A stretch of DNA of 64,000 bases from Nitrosopumilus adriaticus (GTDB lineage Archaea; Thermoproteota; Nitrososphaeria; Nitrososphaerales; Nitrosopumilaceae), in contig NZ_CP011070.1 of the NCBI RefSeq assembly GCF_000956175.1, forward strand, positions 1 to 64,000. The letters run 5' to 3'. Position 1 is the first letter of the stretch. Every line of letters begins with the position of its first letter. The translations under genes and the position numbers were made by a program. Of this stretch, positions 1,505 to 42,300 are shown one piece after another. The notes below the pieces were generated by a model that made no database searches, had not been told where the DNA came from, and worked only from the letters and a program-made list of their open reading frames with translations.

Positions 1505-4500
1505 TTATTCTGATTTTACAGTAATCGTTTCAGAATGATATCTGTATTTGACTTTCACAAAAGCATCATCTGTTGCATGTGCTTGCTGCAGTAATCCATC
1601 CTCAGTTTCAACTGATACACTCCACTTACCAGTGATTGGATCAATTGAGGTAATTGAGAATCTCTCAAGTGCGTTATCTGCTCCACTGTATCTGACTCTA
1701 AGTATTTGATCTCCATATGGAATACTTTCTAGCCCACCACGTTTTCCTTTGGTACTCTCATTGATTAGACATTCTTCGGTTCCACCAATGATACATTGTC
1801 CCAGAGGATCAGTTACTCTGAATCTTAAATCTGAATCAGCATTAGATGCGTAAATTAATGCAGGATCAGCTAATACTTGACCATCTTTTTCAATTACATC
1901 TAATGATATCGTATCATATGCTGAGATTGTTACAGTTCTTGGATGGGTAGAAACTTGTGCAGATATTGTAATAGTAGAGTGATCATACAAGTCAACTCTT
2001 CCTTGCAATTCTAGAATTGAGTCATCATCAGATATTGGAGCTTTCCAGTTAAAGATTACTTGAGTTTGTCCAATTCCAAAGAGTTGTGATTTCTTTGCAA
2101 CTACTTTACCATCAACTACTAAAGATGCTATTCCATATGATGGTGTATCATCGTTGAAGATGTATAATTCTGGTTTAACAAGTGAACCTGATGGAATTAT
2201 ATTTGGAATGTCCATTTCAATTGAAATATCACCCACTGTAGTTGGTTTTACACCAATACTGTAATGAGCAGATTCTGAAATGTTATCATTTTCGTCAGTA
2301 ATGTGCAACCAGTATGTCATACCAGGTTCTGCCATAGCAAATGATGGGATGGTGCCGCTAACAAGATATGTTGAATTTAGCATTTGTAATTTTTCAACAT
2401 TCATGTTAATTGCAATATATTGACTGTCTGGTTGTCCCATAACTAGAGATCTAAGCTCAACACGTTCTAGTGGAATATTGCTTTCAATGATTGAAGATAC
2501 CTTTAATTCTTGATTATCAATGTAAAGGAATTCAGATTCAGACTTTGCATCATATTTGGTACCGTTTGCAATTTGGATTTTGGTATCAAATATTCGAGTT
2601 TGACCAGTAATTTCAGGTACTGTATCTTCTGGTAGTTCAACAATCACTGTTGTTCCCTCACAAGATAGCAGTCTTACTGATGCCTGTACAACATTCTTTG
2701 ATGTGCCCTTTTCTTCTGTAACTACAATCATCAGGAATGATTCATCAGATGAAATTGGAACTTCATAGAGATATCTATCAATGCTAGTTAGTTTGTTCAA
2801 GTCCTCATATGGTTGAACTTCTGCCAATGATGCATAAACGACTCCAGATTTGGAGGTTGCCAATTTGACTGATGGTGGAACATCTGCATCACTTGAGACT
2901 AGAATTCTTGCCATATTTTCATTACATTTGTCATATGAGACCTCATTGATTGCTAGAGGAGTTGATAGAATTCCTCCAAATCCTACTGATGCGCCAGATG
3001 CAGAAGCGCCAGCACCAGTATTACCACCACCGCCACCAGTACTACTGCTACCAAGTCCTCCTGTTCCAGCTCCGGGACTAGATGATCTCTTGGAAGATAT
3101 TGCCTTGTTGGAATAGTGATCAGATTCTATCTCAACTTCACAGAAATCAGTCTTTGTTGTTGATGGAATGTTTGAAAGTATTGTATCTATGCCAGAAGTC
3201 CATACACCTCCAACTAGGGTGTGAACTTGAAGATCCCTACATCCGTTAGCAAGTGTGATTATATCAGTAGATGTTGGTTTTGGAACAAGTACTGTCATAA
3301 TAGGATCGGATGCAAAGTTTGATGAAGTACCCCAGTTAAATCCAACAGTATCTTCTTCATAACGATAATCTACGGAAATTTCTAATTCCAGATCTCTATC
3401 AATACTACTATCAGCTAATGTTACAGAGCTAATATGATCATTATCAACTTCAATTACAATCCAATCTTTATCTCCAGTAGTTGAAGATGTATCCTTTGAT
3501 GTAATATCAAGTTTTGATACACCACCAAAGCTAGGAATGAGTGTTGATTCAACTGGAAGTATCATTTGTTGTCCTGGAGTAACTTTGTTGAATGGTGGCG
3601 TAGATATCATTTGGTGAGTTGTTGATTCTTGAGATACCACTGCAGGAATGACTGTAGTTAATGATTTGTTTGATGGTAGATAGTATTTTGGAAGTTTTAA
3701 TCCTTCTTGTACAATTGAACCTTTAGTACCAACTGACCAATCATTTACATATTTGATATTCTTTTGCAGACTTACTGCATTAGTTTTTGCTGCAGCATTA
3801 TTAACACCAGCGGTAACTTGTGGAGGAAGATCATTGGATTTGGTAATGGATGTTTCTGTAGTGCCTTTGACAACACTTGCTGAAAATCCTGTCATCTTGT
3901 TAAGTGATGTTTGATTAAGTGATGGTGGAGATACTCCTATTCGTTCACCAGCTTGTGATAAATCAACAGTGTTACTTCGTAAAGAGAATATTTTCAACGG
4001 ATTTGCTTCATCACAGCAAAGTGATACAGTAGTTTGATTGACTTTAACATCATAGCCTGCAGGAATCTCAGTCATGACAATTTCATAGTCACCAAATGGA
4101 ACGTTTAGTATTCTTATTTCACCACTGGTTGAATTTGAATCAGTAACAGGATCAGGAGGGGAGACCCAACCATCAGTTATTGTGTAAGTGTCAGTTCCAT
4201 TAGTTGGACTAGGTGAGATTGTAAATGTAGCACCTGGTATTAAGGTACCACCATCAACTGATCTAATCTTCAAAGATCCTTTGAATGTTCCAAAGTTATC
4301 AGAGGTAGAAAGTGTCTCACTTAGATTTCTTGTAAATGTTGATGCTGTGGCTACAATATCAGTTAGTGATAGAATATCTGAAAGTGTAGTAACTACAGAT
4401 TTTGTTGCAAATATTGTGTCAGTTAGTGCAAGTGAGTCAGATAGTGTTGCAGAGATGGCTGATGTGGTTGCAATGGTGTCAGTTAGGGCTAATGAGTCAG

Positions 4501-36061: not shown

Positions 36062-37090
36062 TTAGCGCGAATTTTTAATTTCTTGTAATTGTTTTGCCAA
36101 ATCTCTCAAAAGTTCATTGGCTGTATCAAATTCTCCATCATACAAATGACGTTTAATACTTTGAAGCGTATCTCTGGCATGTATCAAATCATTTTCATCT
36201 ACTCCATCCATTTGAGATAATCGAGATATGGTTTTTTCAACTTGTAATACTCTGGATTCAAGTCTATCATTTTTTGTTAATTCAAACTGTTTCTTTATTG
36301 ACAAGATTTCTCTAATTTCTTTGATGATATCATTTGGATTATCTGCTGAAGAGAGTTTTTCTCTGGCATTTTCTAATTTTTTGATTATTTCATCAGATAA
36401 GCCCTGTTTTTTGGCATTTTCAATTAATCTATCTAATTGCTCTAGATATTTTTGGGCATACTCTTTAGCACGCTGAGATTCTTTTTTTGATGCCTCATCT
36501 CTAATTTCTTTATTGACTTCTACAATGATTTCTTTAATTTTCTGAAGTGTTTCTAACGCTAAAGCAAATTGATTATTGTTGATTTGTTGTTTAGATAATC
36601 TAAATAAATTATCAAGTTCAGAGAAATCAATTGGGGCATCGTATTTTTTAGCAATCGTTTTTAGACTATTTACATAAATTTGTAATCTTTGAAGATCATT
36701 TGATGGATCTTTAACAGTTGATCTTACAGAATCAGATGTTGTTTTTGCTGCAACTTCTGGTGTTGATTCTTTAGTCACATCTGATGATGACACTCTAGAA
36801 ATTTGAGTAAAAATCTTCATTGCAGTAAGAAAATGTTTTTTTGCAGCATCAGCATCATTATTTCTAATTGCCTTTTCAAGTGAATTGACATTTTGAACTC
36901 CTTCTTCAAATAATCTTTTTATTTTATCTGGAGATTCAGAAGAAATTTGATTTTGAACTTGGTTTTGTGCACGCTTTGCGAGTTTAAGGAGGATTTTTGA
37001 ATCATCCTGAGCATAAACATTACTTATTGGTCCACCAAAAACCATACTAACAACTAAAATTAATAATGCAAAAGTAACTATGTTTTTCAT
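36062..37090 (-). CDS. secreted, almost entirely helical protein
   Basis: 342 residues: signal peptide (IVTFALLILVVSMVFGG, cleavage near VYAQ, residue 28), then long amphipathic helices rich in Lys, Glu, Asn and Leu to the end, with repeated LEKAIRNNDADAAKKHFLTA and LSSADNPNDIIKEIREIL-type segments that look like imperfect helical-hairpin repeats. Starts with a four-base overlap (ATGA) with the membrane-tethered regulator, so the pair is translationally coupled. A natural idea is that it is the extracellular partner or ligand carrier of that sensor; this is inference only. No enzyme motifs. Confidence 0.75.
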   Translation of the reverse strand: MKNIVTFALLILVVSMVFGGPISNVYAQDDSKILLKLAKRAQNQVQNQISSESPDKIKRLFEEGVQNVNSLEKAIRNNDADAAKKHFLTAMKIFTQISRVSSSDVTKESTPEVAAKTTSDSVRSTVKDPSNDLQRLQIYVNSLKTIAKKYDAPIDFSELDNLFRLSKQQINNNQFALALETLQKIKEIIVEVNKEIRDEASKKESQRAKEYAQKYLEQLDRLIENAKKQGLSDEIIKKLENAREKLSSADNPNDIIKEIREILSIKKQFELTKNDRLESRVLQVEKTISRLSQMDGVDENDLIHARDTLQSIKRHLYDGEFDTANELLRDLAKQLQEIKNSR

Positions 37091-38145
37091 TCTTCTTCCT
37101 CCAATTCTGTTTTTAGTTTAACTAGGTTTTGTAAGTCTTTTTTAGAAATTTCAATCACTCCTTGTCTTTCTAGTCGTTTAACTGCTCTCCACATAGTAGT
37201 TCTTGGTTGAAGGAATTTTTTTCTTAAATCACTTTCTAAAACCTGACCACCATTTTGAGAAATGAATTTAATAATTTCTTTATCATCCTCACGCATTTCA
37301 GGTCTTAGATTGAAAATTGTTTCAGGATCATTAGAATTAGATTTTATTTTAGATTCAGTGATTTCGTTTTGAATAGCTGAAGATGATTTTGCTTTTCTTT
37401 TAACCATAAAAATTGCTCCAACTACAGCTGCAGTAATGGATACACCAATAACTGAAAGTGTAAAAATATCAGCAGTAGACTCTTCAGTATTTGTTACTGG
37501 TGGGTTTGTTACTGGTGGGTTTGTTACTGGTGGGTTTGTTACTGGTGGGTTTGAGGTACCAAGAATATAATTAATTTCCGATAATCCAGTACTTAGTTCT
37601 AACTGAGTTTGATCATTTACAATAACCATATTTGATGGCAATGCATTCATACCAACAATTATTGAGTTTGCTGGCATTAATAATGAATAATCAGTTGGTG
37701 AATTAAGGGAAAAAGTCCAAACTCTTCCTTCTTTGGAAATTAAGTCATGAATGTCATAATCAATTGTAATAGAAGATGTTCCAAAAGTATCGATTGTTAC
37801 TTTATTATCAATTATTTCACTAGATAATAAAAAACCATTTTCGCCAACTGCTACAAAATTATCAATGGAGGGACCAAATAGATTAACCTCAAAATCTGGA
37901 TCTAAAGGATCCACCTCTAATTGTGATGATATATGCGCAGAACCATCTGAATAAACTGTAATATCTAAAATTCGAGTAGAGCTGAATGAGGTCTGAATAG
38001 GCATCGCTAATGCGACAACGATTAAGCTAGCAATTATCAAAGGTGCTTTAACCATTGTTTCGAGGATACCCTCAGTCCTTACAAAAAGCATTCCATCTTC
38101 TCTAAGAAACTCTTTTCTATGAATTGGTACGATTTCGGGATTCAT
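37087..38145 (-). CDS. membrane-tethered winged-helix regulator with extracytoplasmic domain
   Basis: 352 residues. A hydrophobic signal-anchor (APLIIASLIVVALAMPI, about 34-50) is followed by an extracytoplasmic beta-rich domain (about 55-195, starting TRILDITVYSDGSAHISSQL), a stalk of four PPVTN repeats (about 199-218), a membrane helix (FTLSVIGVSITAAVVGAIFMV, about 228-248), a basic linker, and a cytoplasmic winged-helix DNA-binding domain (about 285-345: EIIKFISQNGGQVLESDLRK, TTMWRAVKRLERQGVIEI). A one-piece sensor-regulator that could pass an outside signal to DNA is inferred. The start may instead be Met31 just before the signal-anchor. It lies 4 bases after a small wHTH gene and overlaps the secreted helical gene by 4. 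Confidence 0.82.
   Translation of the reverse strand: MNPEIVPIHRKEFLREDGMLFVRTEGILETMVKAPLIIASLIVVALAMPIQTSFSSTRILDITVYSDGSAHISSQLEVDPLDPDFEVNLFGPSIDNFVAVGENGFLLSSEIIDNKVTIDTFGTSSITIDYDIHDLISKEGRVWTFSLNSPTDYSLLMPANSIIVGMNALPSNMVIVNDQTQLELSTGLSEINYILGTSNPPVTNPPVTNPPVTNPPVTNTEESTADIFTLSVIGVSITAAVVGAIFMVKRKAKSSSAIQNEITESKIKSNSNDPETIFNLRPEMREDDKEIIKFISQNGGQVLESDLRKKFLQPRTTMWRAVKRLERQGVIEISKKDLQNLVKLKTELEEEE
37492..37551 (-). repeat. 15-bp tandem repeat encoding PPVTN (four copies)
   Basis: The unit tgttactggtgggtt starts at 37492, 37507, 37522 and 37537 and encodes four PPVTN pentapeptides that form the extracellular stalk of the membrane-tethered regulator. Confidence 0.9.
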
Positions 38146-39994: not shown

Positions 39995-40642
39995 TTAATA
40001 GAATTTTGAACTTGTTGTAGTTGCTTCTTGAGTACCAGTAGGAACTGAAGGGAACATCTGACCTGTAGTACTTTCTGCAACAGCAGCAGCTTCTTTTAGG
40101 ATGCTCTCAGACTCTGCACTAGTAGTTGCATCTATTCCAAATGCTGAATCTCCTGAGAAACTATCTGTCATAAATCCTCCAAGCATTTCTGCCATTTGAC
40201 CAATTTCTTGTTCAGCACCGGGCATGATTTTTCCAAGTGATGATTTTAGATTTTTCATCAGACCCATAGTTGGCATTATTGCAACTACTGTATCTCCGAG
40301 ATCACTACATGTAGTTAGCCGTAATTCAATTTGCTCTAATGCTATTCTAGCACCACTCAAAATTTTAGTAACTTTTCTTACTTCAGCCAGTTCATTTCCT
40401 AGAACTTTGGTTGTTTGGGTATCATGTTTTTGTGTTGCATCTACAATTCTTTGAAATAGTTTTGCATCACGTTCTTGTAAATTTTTTAACATTGTATCTA
40501 ATTTTTTAATTTGAATTTGAATTTTTTTTATTCCATCTTGAACTCTTGGTTTTAATGCACCCTTAGGCTTGATCGTCTCATTAATTTTTTCAGATATAGT
40601 AGGCTTTGGTTGCTTTGACCAATCTTTAGATAAATTAGGCAT
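39995..40642 (-). CDS. ESCRT-III / CdvB-like cell-division protein (paralog 2)
   Basis: 215 residues, clearly paralogous to 13016-13666: the same start (MPN-x-x-K-x-W), KPKGALKPRVQDGIKKIQIQ, ERDAKLFQRIVDATQKHDTQ, NELAEVRKVTKIL, and MKNLKSSLGKIMPG followed by an acidic Ser/Thr tail. No C-terminal winged helix. Such proteins form membrane-bound filaments in cell division; the two copies may build mixed polymers. Its promoter shares the ATTTACACC element and exact 33-base spacing with paralog 1, suggesting joint timing. Confidence 0.88.
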   Translation of the reverse strand: MPNLSKDWSKQPKPTISEKINETIKPKGALKPRVQDGIKKIQIQIKKLDTMLKNLQERDAKLFQRIVDATQKHDTQTTKVLGNELAEVRKVTKILSGARIALEQIELRLTTCSDLGDTVVAIMPTMGLMKNLKSSLGKIMPGAEQEIGQMAEMLGGFMTDSFSGDSAFGIDATTSAESESILKEAAAVAESTTGQMFPSVPTGTQEATTTSSKFY

Positions 40643-40860: not shown

Positions 40861-41292
40861 GTGAACAAAAAAATTCTCATAATTCCGATAGCTGTTCTCA
40901 TTGGTATTTTTCTGATAAATTTTGGTTCAGATCAATCCTTGAATGAGAAAAATATTGTATTTCATGTAACTCTGGCAGATCCTAGTCTATATTCCGATGG
41001 GGCTTATAGAAATTCATTTTTTATTGATGAGGGCCATTATTCTTTTAGATTTGTACCAAATGGAAGTAGTCCAGAAAAATTATCAATTAAATTAAATGGA
41101 GAAAAATTTGATTTTTCTGAAGATTTTATCCTTGAAGGTACATTACATCAAACAGGAATATCTGAATACTTTACATGGAATTATGTTGGAGAAGGAAATA
41201 TTTGGATTTCAGAGAACCAAGAAATTTTGATAACGATTAATCCAAATGGAAATACAATGGGTTCTGTGTCCGTAGATATTTTAGAAAATTAA
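40861..41292 (+). CDS. membrane-anchored extracytoplasmic beta-domain protein
   Basis: 143 residues, GTG start with a TATA-like ctttaagata (40831-40840) about 25 bases upstream. One N-terminal membrane helix (ILIIPIAVLIGIFLINFG, 5-22), then a beta-rich domain: IVFHVTLADPSLY, YSFRFVPNGSSPEKLSIKLN, ENQEILITINPNGNTMGSVSVDIL. This order looks like a small jelly-roll or CBM-like domain. Unknown function. A structured RNA candidate begins right at its stop codon. Confidence 0.7.
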   Translation: MNKKILIIPIAVLIGIFLINFGSDQSLNEKNIVFHVTLADPSLYSDGAYRNSFFIDEGHYSFRFVPNGSSPEKLSIKLNGEKFDFSEDFILEGTLHQTGISEYFTWNYVGEGNIWISENQEILITINPNGNTMGSVSVDILEN

Positions 41293-41392
41293 GAGGCGTA
41301 AACCCCTTCATTGCAGAACTTTGAGAGATTTCCTCTCTTTCTCAGATGCTAAATGTCTGATTACCTTTTACGTTCTGCGGGGTTACGCAGTG
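41293..41392 (+). ncRNA. structured RNA candidate: three-way junction with 17-bp closing helix
   Basis: The closing helix has three blocks: GCGTAA (41296-41301) with TTACGC (41383-41388), CCCC (41303-41306) with GGGG (41379-41382) after a bulged A, and GCAGAAC (41313-41319) with GTTCTGC (41372-41378) after a 6-base bulge. Inside are two hairpins: GAGAG/CTCTC (41323-41337) and TCAGA/TCTGA (41342-41360). CTGCG (41375-41379) can also pair with CGCAG (41386-41390), giving an alternative fold. It starts just after the stop at 41292 and is about 130 bases before the TATA box of the next gene, so it is a 3'-UTR element or separate small RNA rather than a leader. Not a tRNA or a riboswitch I recognise. 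Confidence 0.6.
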
Positions 41393-41556
41393 TTAGTCGA
41401 TAGAAATTATATCTATTGACATCATCTATTATAGTAACTTTAAGTATTTATAATTTTATGTAAATTATTATAAAAAAATGATGTATTTTTTAAAATATTT
41501 TATACCTAATTTTGAGTTTATTGAAGTATAAATTACGATTTTCAATCTAAAAACTA

Positions 41557-42300
41557 TTGAAATTATCTGGAAAAGTTGCAATAGTAACAGGTGGAAGTCG
41601 TGGAATAGGTTTTGCCACTGCCAAAATTTTATCAGAAAATGGGGCAACGGTGGTAATTACAGCAAAAAATCAGGAAAGACTAGAGAAAGCATCATTAGAT
41701 ATTCCAAATTCTATTGGCATCGTAGCTGACATCAGAAACAAAGAAGATGTAAAAAATACAGTAGATAAAACAGTTGAAAAATTTGGGAAAATAGATATTC
41801 TAGTAAATAATGCTGGAATTTTTCCAAAAATTAAGGAATTACATGATATTGATGAAGATGAATGGAATGAAGTTTTGGATGTGAATCTTACTGGACAGTT
41901 TAGGTTTACCAAAGAGGTAATTCCTTATCTACAAAAAACATCAGGTTCAATAATTAATATTTCATCAGATGCTGGATTAAAGGCATATCAAGGGTTTAAT
42001 GCTGATGCGTATTCTGCAACCAAAGCTGCATTGATTTTGTTAACAAAATGCTGGGCACTTGAATATGCTAAAGACAAGATCCGTGTAAATTGTATTTGCC
42101 CAGGGGTAGTAGATACAGACATGACAAAACCATTTTTGAAAACCAAAAAAGACAAAGATTTCATGAATGCTGAGCATCCAATTGGTAGAATTGGACAACC
42201 TGAGGAAGTAGGAAAAGCTGTGTTGTATTTTGCATCTGATGATGCATTATGGACTACAGGAGCAATTCTTGCTGTGGATGGAGGAGAATCCATAAAATGA
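41557..42300 (+). CDS. FabG-like short-chain dehydrogenase/reductase
   Basis: 247 residues, TTG start with TATA-like agtataaatt (41526-41535) about 26 bases upstream. VTGGSRGIGFA (about 9-19), NNAGIFP (about 85-91), INISSDAG (catalytic Ser), YSATKAALILL (Tyr-x3-Lys, about 149-159) and the C-terminal WTTGAILAVDGG, the usual end of FabG-type enzymes. Oxidoreductase on an alcohol or 3-ketoacyl-type substrate; true substrate unknown because these archaea do not use bacterial fatty-acid synthesis. Confidence 0.92.
   Translation: MKLSGKVAIVTGGSRGIGFATAKILSENGATVVITAKNQERLEKASLDIPNSIGIVADIRNKEDVKNTVDKTVEKFGKIDILVNNAGIFPKIKELHDIDEDEWNEVLDVNLTGQFRFTKEVIPYLQKTSGSIINISSDAGLKAYQGFNADAYSATKAALILLTKCWALEYAKDKIRVNCICPGVVDTDMTKPFLKTKKDKDFMNAEHPIGRIGQPEEVGKAVLYFASDDALWTTGAILAVDGGESIK

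Follow-up and report, generated by a model that had tools for sequence, protein, structure and literature searches.

The window, by which we mean the whole stretch of 64,000 nucleotides from Nitrosopumilus adriaticus that we analysed, carries a small RNA gene. Comparison across genomes establishes this as a stand-alone gene, together with its fold, its reading frame and their spacing. The features are as follows, in window positions.

About 41425-41281, minus strand: the predicted RNA gene, ~140 nt, with promoter, leaderless ATG, nine codons, stop codon, 3-4 nt, three-way junction and U-rich 3′ end.
41445-41472, minus strand: the putative promoter, with an upstream element (TNNAA....T), a BRE (AAAT) and a TATA box (TATAAATA at 41452-41445), conserved from -50 to -23 in 98 members.
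41393-41422, minus strand: the putative leaderless micro-ORF ATG TCA ATA GAT ATA ATT TCT ATC GAC TAA (MSIDIISID), overlapping hairpin P0 and recognised by start spacing, frame statistics and P0 covariation.
41296-41388, minus strand: the structured domain, with closing helix P1 (three blocks and an asymmetric bulge) and hairpins P2 and P3, recognised by folds, covariation and G-U excess.
41360-41371, minus strand: junction J1/2 (GUAAAAGGUAAU; mostly GAAAAAGGCAAU in relatives), a candidate for pairing with the 3′ tail GCCUUUU.
41275-41295, minus strand: the U-rich, terminator-like 3′ end (CTCTTAATTTTCTAAAA), where the conserved block ends, also in paralogs with unrelated flanks.

A second in-frame ATG lies three nt upstream of the micro-ORF (41425-41423), and its use would give ten codons. 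The convergent gene 40861-41292 has its stop codon within the U-rich 3′ end and encodes a 143-aa protein with no Pfam match; the divergent neighbour in the window encodes a short-chain dehydrogenase. At the other conserved locus, the convergent gene encodes a 363-aa protein, and different genes take this place elsewhere. At most loci, among them the three of this genome, the gene that follows the RNA is convergent with it; a few loci have a same-strand ORF there. Because it is stand-alone and convergent with the next gene, the RNA is not a leader, and it is not a 3′ UTR either; the preliminary description had also placed the element outside the next gene's leader.

That description, which rested on the letters of one strand only, had proposed a three-way-junction RNA at 41293-41392, read on the plus strand and starting immediately past the stop codon of 40861-41292. 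Its coordinates are right, and its closing helix of three blocks (GCGTAA/TTACGC, CCCC/GGGG and GCAGAAC/GTTCTGC) with two internal hairpins is the minimum-energy fold. Folding the plus strand of 41293-41392, we obtained -34.4 kcal/mol compared with -20.1 ± 2.8 kcal/mol for shuffled sequences (z = -5.1; 0 of 200 equal), which bears out the claim of structure beyond chance. The minus-strand complement of 41288-41424 folds nearly as well (z = -4.4). The functional unit runs ~30 nt past 41392, to about 41425, and its promoter to about 41472.

Searching at the DNA level, we found another copy in the N. adriaticus genome (1058321-1058418, 80% identity), and most genomes of the genus gave strong matches. 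A first covariance model matched 125 of 300 genomes of the order, all Nitrosopumilaceae. A second one, for which we used a diverse set of members, had matches in 179 of 350 genomes of the class, and these too were Nitrosopumilaceae only; neither model found the RNA in any other family sampled from the order or class. About 14 Nitrosopumilaceae genomes, some of them incomplete, gave no match in the covariance-model search, and the sampled genomes of genera g40, g41 and g43 were still empty in a more sensitive search. The usual number is 1-4 copies per genome. N. adriaticus has exactly three, all on the minus strand: 41288-41425, 1058323-1058460 and the divergent 1312073-1312200. The last one (L114, 1501-1628) represents a third subfamily, also found at L160, L166, L171 and L172, with promoter spacing, ORF and P1 unchanged and a different inner hairpin, GAGAAUGCUU replacing GAGGNAAUCUC. 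A decayed copy with broken helices and a disrupted ORF lies at the syntenic locus in another genome (L090 in G053, near 4001-4065, minus strand); therefore, copies can be lost. Two metagenome-assembled genomes titled Nitrososphaeraceae (L181 and L209; JAICHE010000001.1 and JAICOU010000033.1) carry copies that closely resemble those of Nitrosarchaeum-type genomes, and these assemblies are possibly mislabelled or contaminated. A mobile element is not supported: outside the gene and its promoter, the copies have no flanking sequence in common, and synteny is largely kept at two of the loci throughout the genus. Viral contigs, scanned once with an exact pattern (a weak test), gave no copy.

Performing covariation analyses, we found two-sided changes in 11 of 34 pairs among 64 Nitrosopumilus-type sequences (97 cells; 0/500 shuffles), while the inner helix GCAGAAC/GUUCUGC and hairpin P3 were almost invariant. 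With 99 sequences from many genera, in an alignment fitted to the model and hence leaning towards it (one of its rows is a weak match to the reverse strand within L080), the count rose to 31 of 34 pairs (322 cells; shuffle mean 76; 0/500). Sliding the partners destroyed the signal, and the 99-row result is consistent both with these controls and with the first alignment, which had not been fitted. Covariation in the GCGTAA/TTACGC and GCAGAAC/GTTCTGC pairs, which the preliminary description had named as a check, was found mostly after adding the members from other genera. The P0 hairpin inside the ORF shows two-sided covariation in all seven of its pairs. Compensatory change of this extent indicates that the fold is under selection, and the three-way junction first proposed from single-strand folding is thereby supported as a real RNA structure. 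The suggested shape switch fared differently. Its CTGCG/CGCAG hairpin is formable in 70 of the 99 members, and most of the distant ones lose it despite retaining the main fold; we therefore reject a conserved switch through this GCG/CGC hairpin. The P3 loop has a sequence near GGNAAUC, and an SD-like GAGG (GAGGUG in some distant members) is present at this loop in most members; it may resemble the sequence complementary to the 3′ end of archaeal 16S rRNA. Pairing between J1/2 and the tail is possible in most Nitrosopumilus sequences, with an AUGGC/GCCAU exchange in four; it is mismatched in one clade and weak in the 41288-41425 copy. Tentatively, J1/2 and the 3′ tail could form a pseudoknot or an alternative helix.

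Read on the minus strand, helices P1-P3 contain 120 G-U cells and 26 A-C cells, and the plus-strand reading swaps these numbers. Beyond 41392, the conserved block continues to a BRE/TATA box, and nearly every member has an ATG at a distance of 22 nt downstream of the TATA box. Since the wobble asymmetry, the promoter and the ORF all point there, we assign the gene, on this conservation, to the minus strand. Thus, of the candidate originally described, the structure, the covariation and the separation from a leader stand, and the plus strand and the position in the 3′ UTR of 40861-41292 do not; the leaderless nine-codon ORF, the P0 hairpin and the shared promoter were missing from it. Family-wide conservation from -75 to -23 extends beyond the BRE and TATA box, notably to T-50, A-47, A-46 and T-41. 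Allowing one mismatch or fewer, the promoter motif has seven sites in the genome, three being the RNA copies and three of the other four lying inside long open frames; the reversed-pattern control has eight sites, so the motif is not rare as such. Still, finding it at each of the three copies suggests that they are regulated in common.

The micro-ORF spans 8-10 codons in all 98 members and exactly nine in 89. Its start codon is ATG in 90, TTG in five and GTG in three. In archaeal promoter geometry, a TATA-ATG spacing of 22 nt leaves few leader nucleotides at most, and the RNA would thus be leaderless. The ATG has been lost in one clade of six members (L060, L066, L076 and L082-L084), where the start would be a TTG or GTG one codon later. 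The 73 distinct ORFs end in TAA (40), TAG (18) or TGA (15). Their 577 interior codons contain no in-frame stop, which is partly implied by selecting ORFs of 8-10 codons, yet every member has such an ORF at the fixed place; the other two frames have 68 of 504 and 43 of 504 (111 in 1008). Shuffled frames had a mean of 43 stops, with a minimum of 23 in 2000 trials. From the stop codon to the first GCG of P1 there are 3-4 nt in 86 of the 98 members, and length variants of the ORF differ by whole codons. The P0 hairpin and the ORF share nucleotides, and the sequence conservation there is partly structural. By these statistics, the frame, its length and its position are kept and the peptide is not, and the comparative evidence argues strongly that the ORF is translated.

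No Rfam (release 15) covariance model matched at its gathering score, nor did any at E ≤ 5 for 41200-41560. The SRP and RNase P RNAs are both located elsewhere in the genome, above the cut-off, and ARAGORN found no tRNA or tmRNA in the window. A U-rich tail follows CGCC in nearly all members and a conserved ANA is absent, as read from the alignment, which does not fit an H/ACA RNA. In the open-licence papers searched, we found no earlier description of the family. From these comparisons, we are nearly certain that the gene belongs to a new family of structured RNAs in which a leaderless micro-ORF is conserved.

The leading explanation, which in our judgement has about an even chance of being right, is a structured small RNA gated by the ribosome. 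Transcription would start at the AUG or a few nt away from it at most, and ribosomes would hence initiate on the bare 5′ end. The nine codons would be read while P0 melts, and termination would take place 3-4 nt before P1. The mRNA enters the ribosome ~6-7 nt past a stop codon in the A site. With the stop codon there, the entry channel would reach the first P1 pairs (GCG/CGC) and the rest of P1-P3 would stay folded; on account of this distance, the first P1 pairs would be opened at termination only. The ORF would be kept for its length and position rather than for its peptide, either loading and positioning a ribosome or reporting ribosome availability. The ribosome would protect the 5′ end of the RNA and might free the 3′ tail for pairing with J1/2, a possible consequence of gating that is contradicted in one clade. 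Gating itself we infer from geometry. The RNA most likely acts in trans, on a target mRNA or a protein partner, because its copies occupy unrelated loci behind one shared promoter type. We also propose, as a possibility somewhat less likely than not, that a fixed-length leaderless ORF without a conserved peptide, parking a terminating ribosome against a conserved fold, constitutes a new class of small RNA, a ribosome sensor or docking device in ammonia-oxidizing archaea. Few microbes of the sea are as abundant as these archaea, and to our knowledge few regulatory RNAs have been described from them. A multi-copy RNA that nearly every member of the Nitrosopumilaceae has kept, whose promoter signature is its own and whose frame is conserved in length though not in sequence, points to a translation-coupled RNA device.

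The most serious rival, which we consider rather unlikely, is an ordinary multi-copy base-pairing sRNA acting in trans, like bacterial Qrr or LhrC, in which the ORF is merely protective and the position of the ribosome carries no information. Several copies at unrelated loci with a common promoter motif would suit it, as would the unpaired purine-rich junction AAAAAGGC, conserved within Nitrosopumilus. However, it is the ORF length and the stop-to-P1 spacing that are conserved in other genera, not this junction, and an ORF serving for protection only would not need a constant nine codons.

We regard as improbable a dual-function RNA, with the nonapeptide as functional product and the structure as regulator or stabiliser. 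Strict maintenance of the frame and the recurring residues K3, D4 and an acidic one at position 9 speak for it, but the 73 distinct ORFs encode 71 different peptides, codons in the unpaired P0 loop vary freely, and the recurring residues fall largely within the paired arms of P0. A dual-function RNA with a conserved peptide is rejected on this diversity. Slightly less probable again is a non-translated RNA, whose start-to-P1 spacing would serve transcription or RNA folding and whose frame would be incidental. The covariation of P0 means that the 5′ region is structural too, as this reading expects; the missing in-frame stops (0 of 577 codons, compared with 111 of 1008 for the two alternative frames), the use of all three stop codons at one position and whole-codon length variants all argue against it.

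An element of the plus strand, either a 3′ UTR element or a terminator of 40861-41292, is very improbable. The structure does start just past that stop codon, and the other copies, too, are situated past the stop codon of a convergent gene, but the preceding genes differ at other loci, the wobble pairs suit the minus strand, and the promoter and ORF lie there. Least probable of all is that the RNA controls a downstream gene as a leader-peptide attenuator or riboswitch. A short ORF followed by structured RNA with a U-tract does look like an attenuator, but the opposite orientation of the next gene at most loci and an ORF in which no single codon is enriched speak against it.

The ribosome-gated reading can be set beside several known systems. 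In bacterial leader-peptide attenuators, the stop codon of a short ORF abuts an RNA structure whose fold the ribosome position could set. The RNA here shares a short ORF whose stop adjoins the structure, whereas it is stand-alone, has no control codons and mostly lacks a downstream same-strand gene. Bacterial tmRNA likewise combines RNA structure with a short, stop-terminated ORF; the RNA here differs in having no tRNA-like domain (ARAGORN negative) and an ORF that starts at its own 5′ AUG. The sRNA154 of Methanosarcina mazei, a proposed dual-function RNA with a leaderless small ORF at nt 4-66 (PMC11456600), is likewise an archaeal small RNA with a leaderless small ORF; compared by description, it encodes a conserved 20-aa protein as opposed to nine codons and a non-conserved peptide here. 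In Haloferax volcanii, the available text of PMC12482152 describes small RNAs occupied by ribosomes, most without evidence of coding potential. These too are archaeal small RNAs with ribosomes, and ribosome contact is a proposal in our case; the evidence there is experimental and ours comparative only, and that text describes no conserved ORF length or three-way junction. Tan1 of marine group II Euryarchaeota is another lineage-specific archaeal structured RNA with no assigned function; it has 229 nt and comes from another phylum, and the available text of the source reports no ORF (PMC5069720).

Two further genes on the minus strand of the window drew our attention. The frame 39995-40642 has a sub-threshold Pfam match to Snf7, and throughout the genus it is conserved close to the first RNA locus (cluster c2); its product is probably ESCRT-III/CdvB-like. 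The frame 37087-38145 encodes a tandem NPPVT repeat followed by a predicted membrane segment, and its C-terminal region looks winged-helix-like by eye.
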